Source: an uncultured bacterium
Lineage (GTDB): Bacteria; Muiribacteriota; Ozemobacteria; Ozemobacterales; Ozemobacteraceae
Assembly (NCBI GenBank): GCA_900317935.1
Contig: ONIU01000009.1
Coordinates: 1 to 47,700, forward strand
Length of the DNA: 47,700 bases
Reading direction: 5' to 3'
The position numbers were made by a program, and so were the translations under genes. Every line of letters starts with the position of its first letter. Position 1 is the first letter of the stretch. Below the pieces are notes generated by a model. It was not told the origin of the DNA and did no database searches. It saw nothing but the letters and a program-made list of their open reading frames with translations. Below, piece after piece: positions 14,187-33,126 of this stretch.

Positions 14187-14636
14187 TCAATAGTAATTAT
14201 GTCTCGGGTCAATAATTAAAGTTACAAACTTTGATTCAGGAACATCATTTGCAGGGTTTGCTGCTTTCTGATGTTTTGCTTTAACAACAAACTGGACTTG
14301 AAGAATATACATAGGTTTTGCACCCGGCGGTAATGGTTCAACATTCAATGGAACAATATTAGGAATAATTTCATACCCGTTTTTATCGGCAACATCCTTA
14401 AGTTCTTTGAAATCATTATCATTAGCAATTTTGATAGCTCTATCAAATCCAACAGCTCTACATAGTTCTAAAGCTGAAGCTCCGAAAAGAGTAGCTAGAG
14501 TTCTAGAATCTGCTCTTGAAATACGTTGCTGTCCATTGCGTATTAAAGAATAAATGGGCAAAAGACCGCATGAAATCAATACCAATACAACAAGTATTTC
14601 AACTAGCGTAAAGCCTTTTCGTTTATTCTTGCTCAT
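14187..14636 (-). CDS. Minor pseudopilin, GspI/PilV-like (cassette A)
   Basis: A 149-residue prepilin with leader MSKNKRKG, cleavage before FTLVEILVVLVLISCGLLP, Glu at +5. Like the I-like proteins at 29527 and 36514, a Pro interrupts the N-terminal helix near position +21, which sets these three apart from the G-like subunit. The rest is a small globular domain. The gene overlaps the upstream giant K-like gene by 4 nt and is 4 nt from the J-like gene, so the three are translated together. Confidence 0.78.
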   Translation of the reverse strand: MSKNKRKGFTLVEILVVLVLISCGLLPIYSLIRNGQQRISRADSRTLATLFGASALELCRAVGFDRAIKIANDNDFKELKDVADKNGYEIIPNIVPLNVEPLPPGAKPMYILQVQFVVKAKHQKAANPANDVPESKFVTLIIDPRHNYY

Positions 14637-26433: not shown

Positions 26434-27062
26434 TGAACAAAATAATAACAAATGTTTTATTTATGATAATCGCAGTAGTTATCATCGTAGTTCTCGGCAA
26501 TCTCTTCTTCATTTCAAATCTGGACAATAAAATACTCCAGTTAGAATTGGATATTGCAGAACAAAGAAGCAAAGTTGAAAATCAGAAAAGTGAAATAGAA
26601 AATTTATCTAACGAAAAAACAGATTCAAATGCTCCTAGAGTGCTTTCCATCGGAGAAGAAGGAAAAATAATGAAGCATTTTCTAGATTCAGATAAATTTA
26701 AAAGTCCGCTTGTTATAAACACTTATGACTTGTTTGCTTCTTATTTTTATAAACCAGAAAACACAGATGAAAGCACCAATAATACAACAACTCAGCAAAA
26801 ACCAGATAATTCAGAGAATACGCCTCTCTTAGATGATAACGGAATGCCCGTTGACGCCTATGCAGAAACTGATTCTGAATGGAGCGGGATAGAAATCCTT
26901 CCTATAAAAATTACGTTTAGTCAAAAACCAGAAGATATGGGAAAAACCTTAAAACTTCTGAATAGCTTACCAGTAAATGCAGTTAGAACAGCTGACTTTG
27001 TGTTTGGAAAAAAATTTATAAGAGGAACAATGATACTGGCTTTTCCTCTTAATGAAGAATAA
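26433..27062 (+). CDS. PilO/GspM-like inner-membrane protein
   Basis: A 209-residue protein with one N-terminal membrane helix (about 4-26), a coiled coil (30-65), a Ser/Thr/Asn/Glu-rich linker (110-140) and a C-terminal ferredoxin-like part with IEILPIKITFSQKPEDMGKTLKLLNSLP. This is the PilO/GspM plan; such proteins pair with PilN/GspL in the inner-membrane complex. ATG 26433 overlaps the previous stop by one base and has AAAGGAGAG upstream. Confidence 0.75.
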   Translation: MNKIITNVLFMIIAVVIIVVLGNLFFISNLDNKILQLELDIAEQRSKVENQKSEIENLSNEKTDSNAPRVLSIGEEGKIMKHFLDSDKFKSPLVINTYDLFASYFYKPENTDESTNNTTTQQKPDNSENTPLLDDNGMPVDAYAETDSEWSGIEILPIKITFSQKPEDMGKTLKLLNSLPVNAVRTADFVFGKKFIRGTMILAFPLNEE

Positions 27063-27088
27063 ATCAATTAGGCTTATTGGAGAAATCA

Positions 27089-27805
27089 ATGAACACAGGA
27101 AAAGAAACATGGAAATGGGGCTTAGTAGTCTTATTACTAGCCATATTTTTAATAACAGCAAATCAGGCTTATCAGCATATTGCAAATCAGGAAGACTATG
27201 AAGCTCCGGATGACTGGAGAAAAGGTGACTCTTGGGATCAAGAACATGGTGGTGGCCCAGGAGCAGGCCAACCAATGCAGGTAACACCTGATTATACTAG
27301 AAGTCAAACAACACCGACACCGGTCAGCACTTCAAACTCAGATTCTGGTCTAAACAGCAATCAAACAAACCAGGAACAAATGATAATAGATGATGATGTT
27401 AATTGGAATCAGAACGATTCTGACAGTAATCAAGCTCCAAATACTGCTGATTCTGCTGCAAAGAATCAGAAATCAGATAATAACACTCAGTCTGGTATGT
27501 ATGAAATATTTACTGCCCCATCAGTAAATGAAACAACCTCTTCCACAGAAAAAGAAGCGGTTAAAGAAAACCCTGTTCCTAGCAATATAGAAGCTTCAAA
27601 AGAAAATACTACTTCTAATAATACAGAAACTCTTTCTGAGCCAGTTAAAGAAGTAACTCCTGAAACTCCCAAACAAGAAGTTCCTGTAGAAGAAAAAGCT
27701 TCTAATACAACAACCCAAGATACACCGGCAGAAGTTCCAGCACAGCCAGCCAGTGAAACAAAGAACGTCTCTGAACCTGCTGCGGATATTCCAGCAGCCC
27801 AATAA
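27089..27805 (+). CDS. Membrane-anchored low-complexity protein
   Basis: A 238-residue protein with one membrane helix near the N-terminus (WGLVVLLLAIFLITANQAY) and then a long disordered periplasmic region rich in Asn, Ser, Thr, Gln, Pro and Glu, ending in Ala/Pro/Val/Glu-rich repeats. No folded domain was recognised. The position after a GspM/PilO-like gene is where GspC, GspN or PilP may occur. A linker role is possible but speculative. ATG 27089 is chosen because GGAGA lies upstream; the TTG at 27077 overlaps it. Confidence 0.6.
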   Translation: MNTGKETWKWGLVVLLLAIFLITANQAYQHIANQEDYEAPDDWRKGDSWDQEHGGGPGAGQPMQVTPDYTRSQTTPTPVSTSNSDSGLNSNQTNQEQMIIDDDVNWNQNDSDSNQAPNTADSAAKNQKSDNNTQSGMYEIFTAPSVNETTSSTEKEAVKENPVPSNIEASKENTTSNNTETLSEPVKEVTPETPKQEVPVEEKASNTTTQDTPAEVPAQPASETKNVSEPAADIPAAQ

Positions 27806-30152: not shown

Positions 30153-30179
30153 TAAATTTTTTTATTCTTTTGCCGATGA
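30153..30179 (+). promoter_or_regulatory. Sigma-28 (FliA) promoter of the motAB operon
   Basis: TAAA (30153-30156), exactly 15 nt, then GCCGATGA (30172-30179). This matches the FliA consensus TAAA-N15-GCCGATAA at 11 of 12 positions. A start site near 30186 gives a leader of about 30 nt with AAGGAG before the ATG at 30217. Confidence 0.85.
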
Positions 30180-30216
30180 TTTTGAAAGGAAATGTTAGCC
30201 CAAAAAGGAGCAGAAA

Positions 30217-30843
30217 ATGTTTAAAAGATTCCAGGTTTTAATGGCTCTTATATTAAGCCTTTCTTTACTAACAGCTGTTGGCTGCGGAACTAAGAGCTCA
30301 CTAAGAGGTTCTATAGTTGGAACTATAGTTGATTCACAAACAGGTATAGGTATTTCTGGTGCAACAGTAGTAACTTCACCAAGCACCAGCTCTGTTATTA
30401 CAGATATAAACGGCAGATTTACTATTTCAGAAGTCGAAGCAGGTGTTTATACTTTAACCGCCCATGCTAGTGATTACAATTCAAACTCTATCACAGTTAG
30501 TGTAGATAGCGGTTCTTCAACAACAACCAATGTTGTACTTGTTTCTACTGGAGGAAGTTTTTCACGCAATATTCTTCCAATATTCACAGTTAACTGCGCT
30601 ATAGCTGGCTGTCACAACGATAATTCTGCTGCTTCTTCTCTTCGTCTGAACAGCTACACTAACGTTCTTAAAGGTTCAAAATCTGGTGCAGTAATATATC
30701 CATATGACGCTTCTACTTCTAAAGTAGTTAAACGTATTAAAGGCACAGAATCTCCAAGAATGCCAAAAGATCGTGCTTCTCTTTCAACATCTGATCAAAG
30801 CCTAATCTCCAACTGGATAAACGGCGGAGCTAGAAATAACTAA
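30217..30843 (+). CDS. Lipoprotein with regulatory-like beta domain and CX4CH heme-like site
   Basis: The 208-residue protein has a lipoprotein signal (lipobox TAVGC, Cys23), a CarboxypepD_reg-type beta sandwich (about 32-108: GTIVDSQTGIGISGATV, DINGRFTISEVEAGVYTL) and a C-terminal module (115-208) that resembles cytochrome-c-like domains with a CX4CH site: ILPIFTVNC, C127-x4-C132-H133, later PRMP and LISNWINGGA. Canonical heme sites are CxxCH, so heme attachment is uncertain. It is the first gene behind a sigma-28 promoter that also serves motA and motB, so it is likely expressed with the flagellum. Confidence 0.78.
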   Translation: MFKRFQVLMALILSLSLLTAVGCGTKSSLRGSIVGTIVDSQTGIGISGATVVTSPSTSSVITDINGRFTISEVEAGVYTLTAHASDYNSNSITVSVDSGSSTTTNVVLVSTGGSFSRNILPIFTVNCAIAGCHNDNSAASSLRLNSYTNVLKGSKSGAVIYPYDASTSKVVKRIKGTESPRMPKDRASLSTSDQSLISNWINGGARNN

Positions 30844-30864
30844 TATTTATAAGGAGCTACAAGA

Positions 30865-31563
30865 ATGAAAAAATCAGGTTTTTATTACTTAACTTCAGGT
30901 TTAATAGCATTTAGTATTTTCGGAATTATTACCGACATTCAGGCTTCTAACGACATTCAGCTTATTTCTCCTCCGGTTGAAACTCAGAGTTTTATGATGG
31001 CTAGCGTTCCTAACAATTCTTCCTATCAGAATACAAATGCAGCAATGCAAGCTCAGATAAAATCGAAAAAAGAAAATATTTTAAAGAAAATCGAAGAAAT
31101 GAAAAAGGCTTCTTCGACACCTTCCTCTAATAGTCCTTCTGTTACAAAACCAACTTCAGTAACAAAGCTTGGAAGTAAACCAAGACAACTTTATAGTTAT
31201 GTGCGAATGCTTGATTACTCCCCACACCCAAGAACTGAAAATATTTTAAAAGACAAACCTGTTCTTTATAACGGAAAGAACTACCATTTTACAGTAACAT
31301 ATAACGAAGACTGGAAATATGTTTCAGATGACCTGTCTCTTATGAATGGAATCAGTTTCACTATAAACGTTTATGAAAACGGTAAAAGAGTAAGAAACTT
31401 AACAACACCTAAAGTTCAACTGAATCCACAAAAGATTAAAAAAGGTCAGACCATAGGTATAGCTGAAGTAGCACCGTTTAAGTTCAACATAAAAATAAAT
31501 GATTTAACTGTAACGAAAAAAGGAATAACAGTTTTAGAATTTAAGCTGGATTTAATTGGTTAA
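30865..31563 (+). CDS. Exported protein of unknown function upstream of motA
   Basis: A 232-residue protein with a signal peptide (1-28, ending IQA-SNDI), a helical Lys/Glu segment (about 65-80), a Ser/Pro/Thr linker (81-105) and a beta-rich C-terminal domain (about 110-232: LYNGKNYHFTVTYNEDWKYV, TINVYENGKRVRNL). No known family is recognised. It lies 21 nt after the lipoprotein gene and 29 nt before motA in the sigma-28 unit, so a role in motility, such as stator stability, is a reasonable inference. Confidence 0.68.
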   Translation: MKKSGFYYLTSGLIAFSIFGIITDIQASNDIQLISPPVETQSFMMASVPNNSSYQNTNAAMQAQIKSKKENILKKIEEMKKASSTPSSNSPSVTKPTSVTKLGSKPRQLYSYVRMLDYSPHPRTENILKDKPVLYNGKNYHFTVTYNEDWKYVSDDLSLMNGISFTINVYENGKRVRNLTTPKVQLNPQKIKKGQTIGIAEVAPFKFNIKINDLTVTKKGITVLEFKLDLIG

Positions 31564-31592
31564 TACAAGCTTGAATAAGCTGGAGGTTTATT

Positions 31593-32393
31593 TTGGATAA
31601 GACATCGGTTTTTGGCACCATTTTTGGATTCTTGTTGATTTTAATAGGTATCAAGATATCCGGAAGCCTAAAAATGTTCTTTGATATTCCGTCATTGTTC
31701 ATCGTTTTTGGCGGCGGCTGTTCTGCTTTGCTTGTCGCCTTCAAATGGGAAAAAGTAAAATCTGTTCTTGGCGGAATAAGAATGGCATATAAAGCGCCAA
31801 AAGAATATAACTATATGAAGTTAATCAGCAATATTCTTATGATTGCTGAATCAGCAAGAAAAGAAGGTATTCTTTCTCTTGAACCAAAAATTGCAGAAAT
31901 AGATGAACCTTTCTTAGCCAGATTACTTCAGCTTGTAGTAGATAGTGTTGATGCAAAGCTTATTGCAGAAGTTATCGACACTGAAATACAAGCAACTTCC
32001 CAACGCCACGTTGACGTTATAGATGCATTAAACTTCCTTGCTTCAGTTGTTCCAGCTTTTGGTATGATTGGAACAATTATCGGTCTGGTCTGTCTCTTAG
32101 GAAACTTAGACGACCCATCTTCAATTGGTCCGAATATGGCTGTTGCTCTTGTTACAACCTTTTATGGAACCATCGCAGCTAACCTATTACTGACACCATT
32201 TGCCAAAAAACTTGCCGAACGCGCTGCGGAAGAAGATATGTATAACGATATTATCGGTCGTGGTGTTATACTTATCGCATCAGGGACTAACCCAAGAATC
32301 GTTCAGGAAAAACTCTTGTCATATCTCTCTGAAAAATCAAAAGAAGCTTTTAATGAACTCCACTTAGCAGAGGAGCTCTCTCAGAATGGTTAA
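31593..32393 (+). CDS. motA: Flagellar stator protein MotA
   Basis: A 266-residue inner-membrane protein with four membrane helices (about 8-28, 31-50, 148-170, 180-202) and the large cytoplasmic loop between helices 2 and 3. The segment FLASVVPAFGMIGTIIGLV holds the conserved Pro of the channel, and RGVILIASGTNPRIVQEKL the C-terminal motif. MotA with MotB forms the ion channel that turns the rotor. The start is TTG at 31593, with GGAGG 8 nt upstream. It overlaps motB by 8 nt. Confidence 0.94.
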   Translation: MDKTSVFGTIFGFLLILIGIKISGSLKMFFDIPSLFIVFGGGCSALLVAFKWEKVKSVLGGIRMAYKAPKEYNYMKLISNILMIAESARKEGILSLEPKIAEIDEPFLARLLQLVVDSVDAKLIAEVIDTEIQATSQRHVDVIDALNFLASVVPAFGMIGTIIGLVCLLGNLDDPSSIGPNMAVALVTTFYGTIAANLLLTPFAKKLAERAAEEDMYNDIIGRGVILIASGTNPRIVQEKLLSYLSEKSKEAFNELHLAEELSQNG

Positions 32394-33126
32394 ACGCGAA
32401 ATAAAACAACCATCAGCAGCCTTATGGTATGTATCATACGGTGACTTAGTAACAAATATGCTTTGTTTCTTCGTTATGCTGTTTGCGTTTTCATCTCTTG
32501 ACTCTCCTAAAAAACGCCAGGAAAGCCAGTCTATGGACCAGCGATTCTTCGCGGTTTTCACAATCAATCAGGCTCAGGGTGCGCATCAATGGCTTACTCA
32601 AGGTGACAAAGGCATATTGATGACTCCTGCTTCTCAAAGAAACGAAGCGGTAAGAATTGTTAAAAGCGTAAGGAACAAGCTTTCCAAAGTTACTATGCAT
32701 GACCGTATTCAGGTCGCTTCTAATGACCAGATGGTCAAAATTCAAATACCTGCAAACGTATTATTTGAAAGCGGAAGCGCCACAATGAAAAAAGGTGCAG
32801 AAGAAGTTCTTATCGCCTTAGTTCCAATAATCGGCACCATAGAGAACTACATAAGAATAGATGGTCACACTGATGATTTACCCCCAAATGTAAAATCACA
32901 ATTTCCATCAAACTGGGAACTTTCTGCAGCGAGAGCATGTACGGTTGTCAGATATTTTGTTAACGATATGAATATGGATCCGGAAAGATTCTCTGCTCAA
33001 GGCTATGCCGATAATCGCCCAAAAGTTCAGAACAATTCAGATGCTGGAAGAGAAATCAACAGGCGTGTAGAAATTATCATATTAAACCAGAAGAAAAAAG
33101 CTGTAAAAAACGAAAGCTGGTATTAG
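32386..33126 (+). CDS. motB: Flagellar stator protein MotB
   Basis: A 246-residue protein with a single membrane helix (about 20-38) holding the ion-carrying Asp20 in SYGDLVTNMLCFFVMLFAF, a plug and linker region, and a C-terminal OmpA-like peptidoglycan-binding domain (about 115-240) with IRIDGHTDDLPPN, NWELSAARA and NRRVEI. It anchors the stator to the wall. Whether protons or sodium are used cannot be decided by eye. It ends 3 nt from the convergent tilS stop. Confidence 0.94.
   Translation: MVKREIKQPSAALWYVSYGDLVTNMLCFFVMLFAFSSLDSPKKRQESQSMDQRFFAVFTINQAQGAHQWLTQGDKGILMTPASQRNEAVRIVKSVRNKLSKVTMHDRIQVASNDQMVKIQIPANVLFESGSATMKKGAEEVLIALVPIIGTIENYIRIDGHTDDLPPNVKSQFPSNWELSAARACTVVRYFVNDMNMDPERFSAQGYADNRPKVQNNSDAGREINRRVEIIILNQKKKAVKNESWY

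Follow-up and report, generated by a model that had tools for sequence, protein, structure and literature searches.

Sigma-28 promoters drive motAB in other bacteria, and the sigma-28 (FliA/SigD/WhiG) class III motility operons are the closest described counterparts of the locus analysed here. The published sigma-28 consensus of E. coli is TAAAGTTT-n11-GCCGATAA (PMC2859248). A further comparison is offered by the stator accessories of Vibrio (MotX, MotY, FlgT, FlgO and FlgP) and Cereibacter (MotE and MotK); stator scaffolds are lineage-specific, with outer-membrane lipoproteins among them (PMC7990780; PMC10954123). The present locus resembles class III operons in its TAAA-N15-GCCGAT arrangement, in the presence of FliA in the genome and in having motA-motB downstream. 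It differs from them in that the −35 element varies (TAAA, TCAA or TTAA), motA-motB is preceded by two lineage-specific envelope genes, and flagellin and flgL-like genes are without the box. With the Vibrio and Cereibacter systems it shares candidate accessories that are periplasmic or outer-membrane anchored and a stator resembling the MotP/PomA type, but no detectable sequence or fold relation.

The locus belongs to a Candidatus Riflebacteria genome (G000; 4.55 Mb, 97% complete). We refer to the whole stretch of DNA analysed, 47,700 nt of contig C218, as the window. Comparison genomes carry the handles G000 (own genome) to G056, and the own family (f1) comprises 24 genomes. The features of the locus are as follows.

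30153..30179, plus strand: sigma-28 (FliA/WhiG)-type promoter, TAAA-N15-GCCGATGA; 11/12 match, box conserved in 20/20 relatives
30180..30216, plus strand: 5′ leader with ribosome-binding site AAAGGAG
30217..30843, plus strand: lipoprotein, 208 aa; ATG start at 30217, Pfam domains, 20 orthologues aligned
30865..31563, plus strand: second exported protein, 232 aa; orthologues in 20 family genomes, beta domain modelled by AlphaFold2
31593..32393, plus strand: motA; TTG start with GGAGG, PF01618 at 5e-24
32386..33126, plus strand: motB, MotB_plug and OmpA-type domain; PF13677 at 3e-15, PF00691 at 3e-15

A conserved sigma-28-type promoter precedes a predicted operon

We confirmed the promoter and the gene cluster reported in the initial annotation. 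The sequence at 30153–30179 (plus strand), TAAATTTTTTTATTCTTTTGCCGATGA, matches TAAA-N15-GCCGATAA at 11 of 12 positions with the exact 15-nt spacer, and thus lies within a tolerance of one to two mismatches; only the distance to the lipoprotein gene, given as 38 nt, needed correction, to 37 nt before the ATG at 30217. The tight packing of the four genes was likewise borne out: 21 nt separate the lipoprotein and second protein genes, 29 nt separate the latter from motA, and motA and motB overlap by 8 nt. A terminator scan, which predicted 3 terminators against 2.1 expected by chance, gave no credible plus-strand terminator between the four genes, its sole weak candidate lying inside motA. The lipoprotein, second protein, motA and motB are therefore predicted to be co-transcribed.

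We rejected any claim of significance from the single promoter site, because one 11/12 match is not beyond chance: 0.37 matches with at most one mismatch are expected in the window, and another of equal quality occurs at 14383–14409, inside a pseudopilin open reading frame. Genome-wide, TAAA-N15-GCCGATNA occurs 9 times, compared with 3 times for a reversed control pattern. We judge the promoter to be real because the position of the box is kept in relatives. The GCCGAT box was present in 20/20 orthologous upstream regions of the family (exact in 17, one mismatch in 3), ending 38–45 nt before the lipoprotein start codon and preceded by a −35-like YAA (TTAA, TCAA or TAAA) in every case, whereas the count in shuffled controls averaged 0.66 and never exceeded 4. 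The genome encodes a FliA/WhiG sigma factor above the family cut-off (TIGR02479, 8.9e-86), and its gene adjoins cheC and cheD. Considering this footprint (20/20, against 0/25 upstream of flagellin and flgL-like genes) together with the presence of FliA, flagellins and FlhA in the genome, we conclude that a sigma-28-type promoter before the lipoprotein gene is well supported by sequence; its activity would depend on FliA. In several relatives, the ribosome-binding site of the lipoprotein gene is also covered by a hairpin, GCTC-AGGAAG-GAGC. The hairpin is degenerate in the window, and we treat a putative CsrA-type hairpin in this leader as a lead only.

Filament genes lack the box

Flagellin promoters were considered for validation of the motif and rejected, since the box is absent from them; they served instead as negative controls. 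None of the upstream regions of 12 flagellin and 13 flgL-like genes contained the GCCGAT box (0/25). Judged by these regions, the filament genes are outside the GCCGAT regulon, and the equation of a FliA promoter with a late flagellar gene, on which the initial annotation drew, carries less weight for this lineage than for enterics.

Several flagellin (L083, L099 and L101) and flgL-like (L208–L219) genes have a common element of their own, TGAC/GGAC followed after about 17–18 nt by TATATTT/TATACTTT. On the basis of this element and the missing GCCGAT, transcription of the filament genes may rely on another sigma factor. Flagellin leaders in the family contain two hairpins exposing GGA, one about 30–40 nt before the start (for example, GCGCAAGGATGCGC) and a second over the ribosome-binding site (GATTC-ACGGAG-GAATC); they were located at G000:C225:24318-24731 and 26894-27310 (L083) and also in L099, L101 and L098. 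A csrA gene adjoins a flagellin gene (G000:C295:3304-3462), and with the leader hairpins this looks like the hag/CsrA/FliW control of Bacillus. Flagellins of the phylum (matches from G000 to G056) are multi-copy and very long, often with open frames of 750–915 aa.

The lipoprotein carries a predicted cytochrome domain

The lipoprotein had been described as an unknown protein, a description that does not hold, as it contains two domains above Pfam cut-offs. A signal peptide with lipobox AVGC (Cys at 23) is followed by a CarboxypepD_reg domain (residues 32–108, 1.4e-13) and by a PSCyt1 cytochrome c domain comprising residues 131–185 and the upstream CX4CH (9.5e-10; 39.4 bits against a cut-off of 22). 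The haem-attachment motif CX4CH consists of C127 and C132-H133, with Met182 as the distal residue; CX4CH haem sites are attested in cytochrome c3 (PMC10454114). C23, C127, C132, H133 and M182 are invariant across 20 orthologues, which align with a mean column identity of 83% and no indel after the signal peptide. Haem-attachment machinery is represented in the genome by a CcsA-type protein (PF01578, 5.1e-41). ResB was not seen in the own genome, whose contig stops at that point; in G002, of the same genus, a ResB-like protein (recognised by eye) directly precedes CcsA. The lipoprotein is thus predicted to bind haem and, because Gly follows the lipobox, is probably located in the outer membrane. 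A PDB sequence search returned matches only to its carboxypeptidase-regulatory-like half; the cytochrome half of the AlphaFold2 model had pLDDT values below 50, and the lipoprotein was left out of the fold search for this reason.

The gene is single-copy in 23/24 family genomes, the exception (G010) being a 64% complete genome in which the contig begins inside motA. It was found in 0/16 genomes of the phylum's other families at E 1e-30, flagellated families among them. Mean identity to the window protein over 13 loci was 79% for the lipoprotein, 65% for MotA, 62% for MotB and 44% for the second protein. Conservation at this level is unusual in a secreted lipoprotein and points to a constrained function. 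Compared with PSCyt1 (PF07635) mono-haem cytochromes and CarboxypepD_reg (PF13620) proteins, the likeness lies in both domains scoring above Pfam cut-offs and in the CX4CH and Met. The differences are that here the domains are fused in one small lipoprotein, that its position is tied to motAB and a sigma-28 promoter, and that it evolves unusually slowly.

The second exported protein opens with an N-terminal signal sequence. A variable linker, in relatives frequently Ala/Pro-rich, joins this to a C-terminal beta domain at residues ~98–232, for which AlphaFold2 block-mean pLDDT exceeded 90 from residue 101 on. Orthologues occur in 20 family genomes. We detected no match in Pfam, NCBIfam or PDB sequences, and a PDB fold search with the model returned nothing at E ≤ 0.001. 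A domain related to the beta domain starts longer TPR proteins in the same family (L030–L039), which adjoin right-handed-repeat periplasmic proteins.

The pair is linked to a MotP/PomA-like stator in most of the family

MotA scores best against the NCBIfam profiles for MotP (3.8e-65) and PomA (9.2e-65), with the MotA profiles behind these, and is 95% identical to that of a Riflebacteria genome from goat abomasum. It resembles MotPS and PomAB stators in these best scores but differs from them in falling below the curated cut-off of every equivalog, and no ion type is assigned. The gene products have the MotA/ExbB channel domain, the MotB plug with its channel Asp and the OmpA-like domain of flagellar MotAB, in a genome that encodes flagellins and FlhA. 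Because MotA of this kind is missing from flagellin-less genomes in families f7 and f8, the window MotAB is most likely a flagellar stator.

The four-gene order proposed as a check on the locus was found in 16 family genomes, and in three more (G008, G013 and G016) the second protein is missing and the lipoprotein lies directly before motA and motB. The lipoprotein is thus linked to motAB in 19 of the 24 family genomes, across many genera; G015 has a contig break consistent with linkage and G010 gives no data. Linkage was broken in the remaining 3/24 (G004, G009 and G017), which runs against the initial annotation: these keep the lipoprotein and second protein and have no motAB at the locus. 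The box distance is unchanged there, with GCCGAT in G004 and G017 and GACGAT in G009. Since the box stays with the lipoprotein where motAB has been lost, the promoter belongs to the lipoprotein. At other places in their genomes, G009 and G017 have an E. coli-like MotAB and G004 has a distant one, in no case with a GCCGAT box upstream; a clear box directly upstream of MotA was also absent in other families. As the pair persists in genomes with a different MotAB, it is not tied to one stator type. In genus g7 (L205, G017:C110; L206, G009:C22), the E. coli-like MotAB replaces the MotP/PomA-like stator.

Relation of the envelope proteins to motility

Our best explanation, to which we assign a probability of roughly 55%, is that the locus is a FliA/WhiG-controlled operon in which the stator MotAB is encoded with two family-specific envelope proteins acting as motility accessories. 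The FliA/WhiG sigma factor would switch on the lipoprotein, the second protein and the stator together. The lipoprotein, which combines a beta-sandwich domain with a c-type cytochrome domain for one haem, would probably be anchored in the outer membrane; the second protein, with its flexible linker and its beta domain, would be Sec-exported, and both would serve motility at the cell envelope. The sequences themselves show that the promoter and the gene order are conserved, which domains are present and that the haem-ligand residues are invariant; these argue strongly for co-regulation of the pair with the stator, whereas any contact of either protein with the motor, or effect on it, is inferred. 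The explanation is favoured by the footprint (20/20 against 0/25), by FliA and the flagellar genes, by the order in 19 genomes, by a lipoprotein that is single-copy in the family and better conserved than its three operon partners, and by the invariant CX4CH and Met in a genome that encodes CcsA. Against it stand the three genomes in which the pair occurs without this motAB, the flagellated families that have no lipoprotein, the other GCCGAT sites before barrels and secreted proteins, and the filament genes outside the regulon. The initial view that the two are late motility proteins therefore holds in part, in that the promoter, FliA, the flagellated lineage and the order in 19 genomes are in agreement with it, whereas unlinking in 3/24 and filament genes lacking the box are not.

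It is possible, although we consider it somewhat unlikely, that the pair is a co-regulated bystander: part of a FliA/WhiG envelope regulon of beta-barrels and Ig-like secreted proteins for surface remodelling or electron transfer in the motile phase, with motAB lying downstream of the promoter and no physical partnership. The retention of the promoter with the lipoprotein where motAB is lost fits this reading. Other intergenic GCCGATRA sites conserved in the genus stand before the genes of a Phenol_MetA_deg barrel (429 aa), an outer-membrane protein (329 aa), a Big_5 secreted protein (488 aa) and a protein of 160 aa, with no known flagellar gene among them; such sites before envelope genes support co-regulation of envelope proteins, so that the bystander reading stays in play. 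In G016 (genus g6), a homologue of the 429-aa barrel (33% identity; L201:9328-10665) is encoded immediately before the lipoprotein, giving the order beta-barrel outer-membrane protein, lipoprotein, motA, motB, and the end of a barrel homologue is also visible upstream of the lipoprotein in G008. A homologue of the G016 barrel located elsewhere carries its own conserved GCCGATGA promoter. However, adjacency to motA persists in 19 genomes of many genera, and three of these dropped the second protein yet kept lipoprotein-motA-motB.

The accessory role could also take the form of a stator scaffold that, though unrelated by descent, does a job like that of MotX/MotY/FlgT/FlgO/FlgP in Vibrio or MotE/MotK in Cereibacter: the outer-membrane lipoprotein and a linker protein reaching toward MotB would recruit or stabilise stators, and the cytochrome fold would be structural. 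Because this is one form of the accessory explanation, our estimates for the readings considered here need not sum to one. A lipoprotein and a periplasmic protein are indeed co-encoded with a MotP/PomA-like stator, and known scaffolds are lineage-specific and some are outer-membrane lipoproteins (PMC7990780; PMC10954123). We nevertheless regard this form as unlikely: neither protein resembles MotX, MotY, FlgT, FlgO, FlgP or any other known scaffold protein in sequence or fold, a peptidoglycan-binding domain is lacking, G008, G013 and G016 lack the second protein, and the haem-ligand residues are strictly kept. The analogy to MotX, MotY and FlgT drawn in the initial annotation thus finds no support from homology for either protein, the second having no match in Pfam, NCBIfam or PDB (sequence or fold) and the lipoprotein matching other domains. 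To our knowledge, none of these Vibrio or Cereibacter families is characterised by a cytochrome domain.

A more specific idea is that a haem-bearing outer-membrane lipoprotein, co-expressed with the stator, might make flagellar motor activity responsive to redox conditions in the envelope or the surroundings, with input at the motor itself and not via chemoreceptors; this seems to us decidedly doubtful. Finally, it is very improbable that the pair works with the adjacent cluster of pseudopilin and pilM-type pilus genes instead of the motor: pseudopilin genes do lie divergently beside the lipoprotein, and the locus has pilM/TPR genes on its flanks, but the pair is transcribed away from the pseudopilins from its own promoter, and G009 and G017 keep the pair and the box position without pseudopilin neighbours.

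The Riflebacteria phylum is reported to rank among those whose genomes contain the most unknown gene families (PMC10849945). Within the literature searched, the coverage of which was incomplete, we found no description of a c-type cytochrome in a motAB operon, and the operon suggests an undescribed envelope or redox accessory of bacterial motility. Should the lipoprotein act together with the motor, it would represent a stator accessory of a new kind, through which swimming might receive a direct redox input. As a co-regulated bystander, it would still be a single-copy, family-defining gene (23/24 against 0/16) that is more conserved than MotA, and together with the second protein it forms a clear, testable gene pair.
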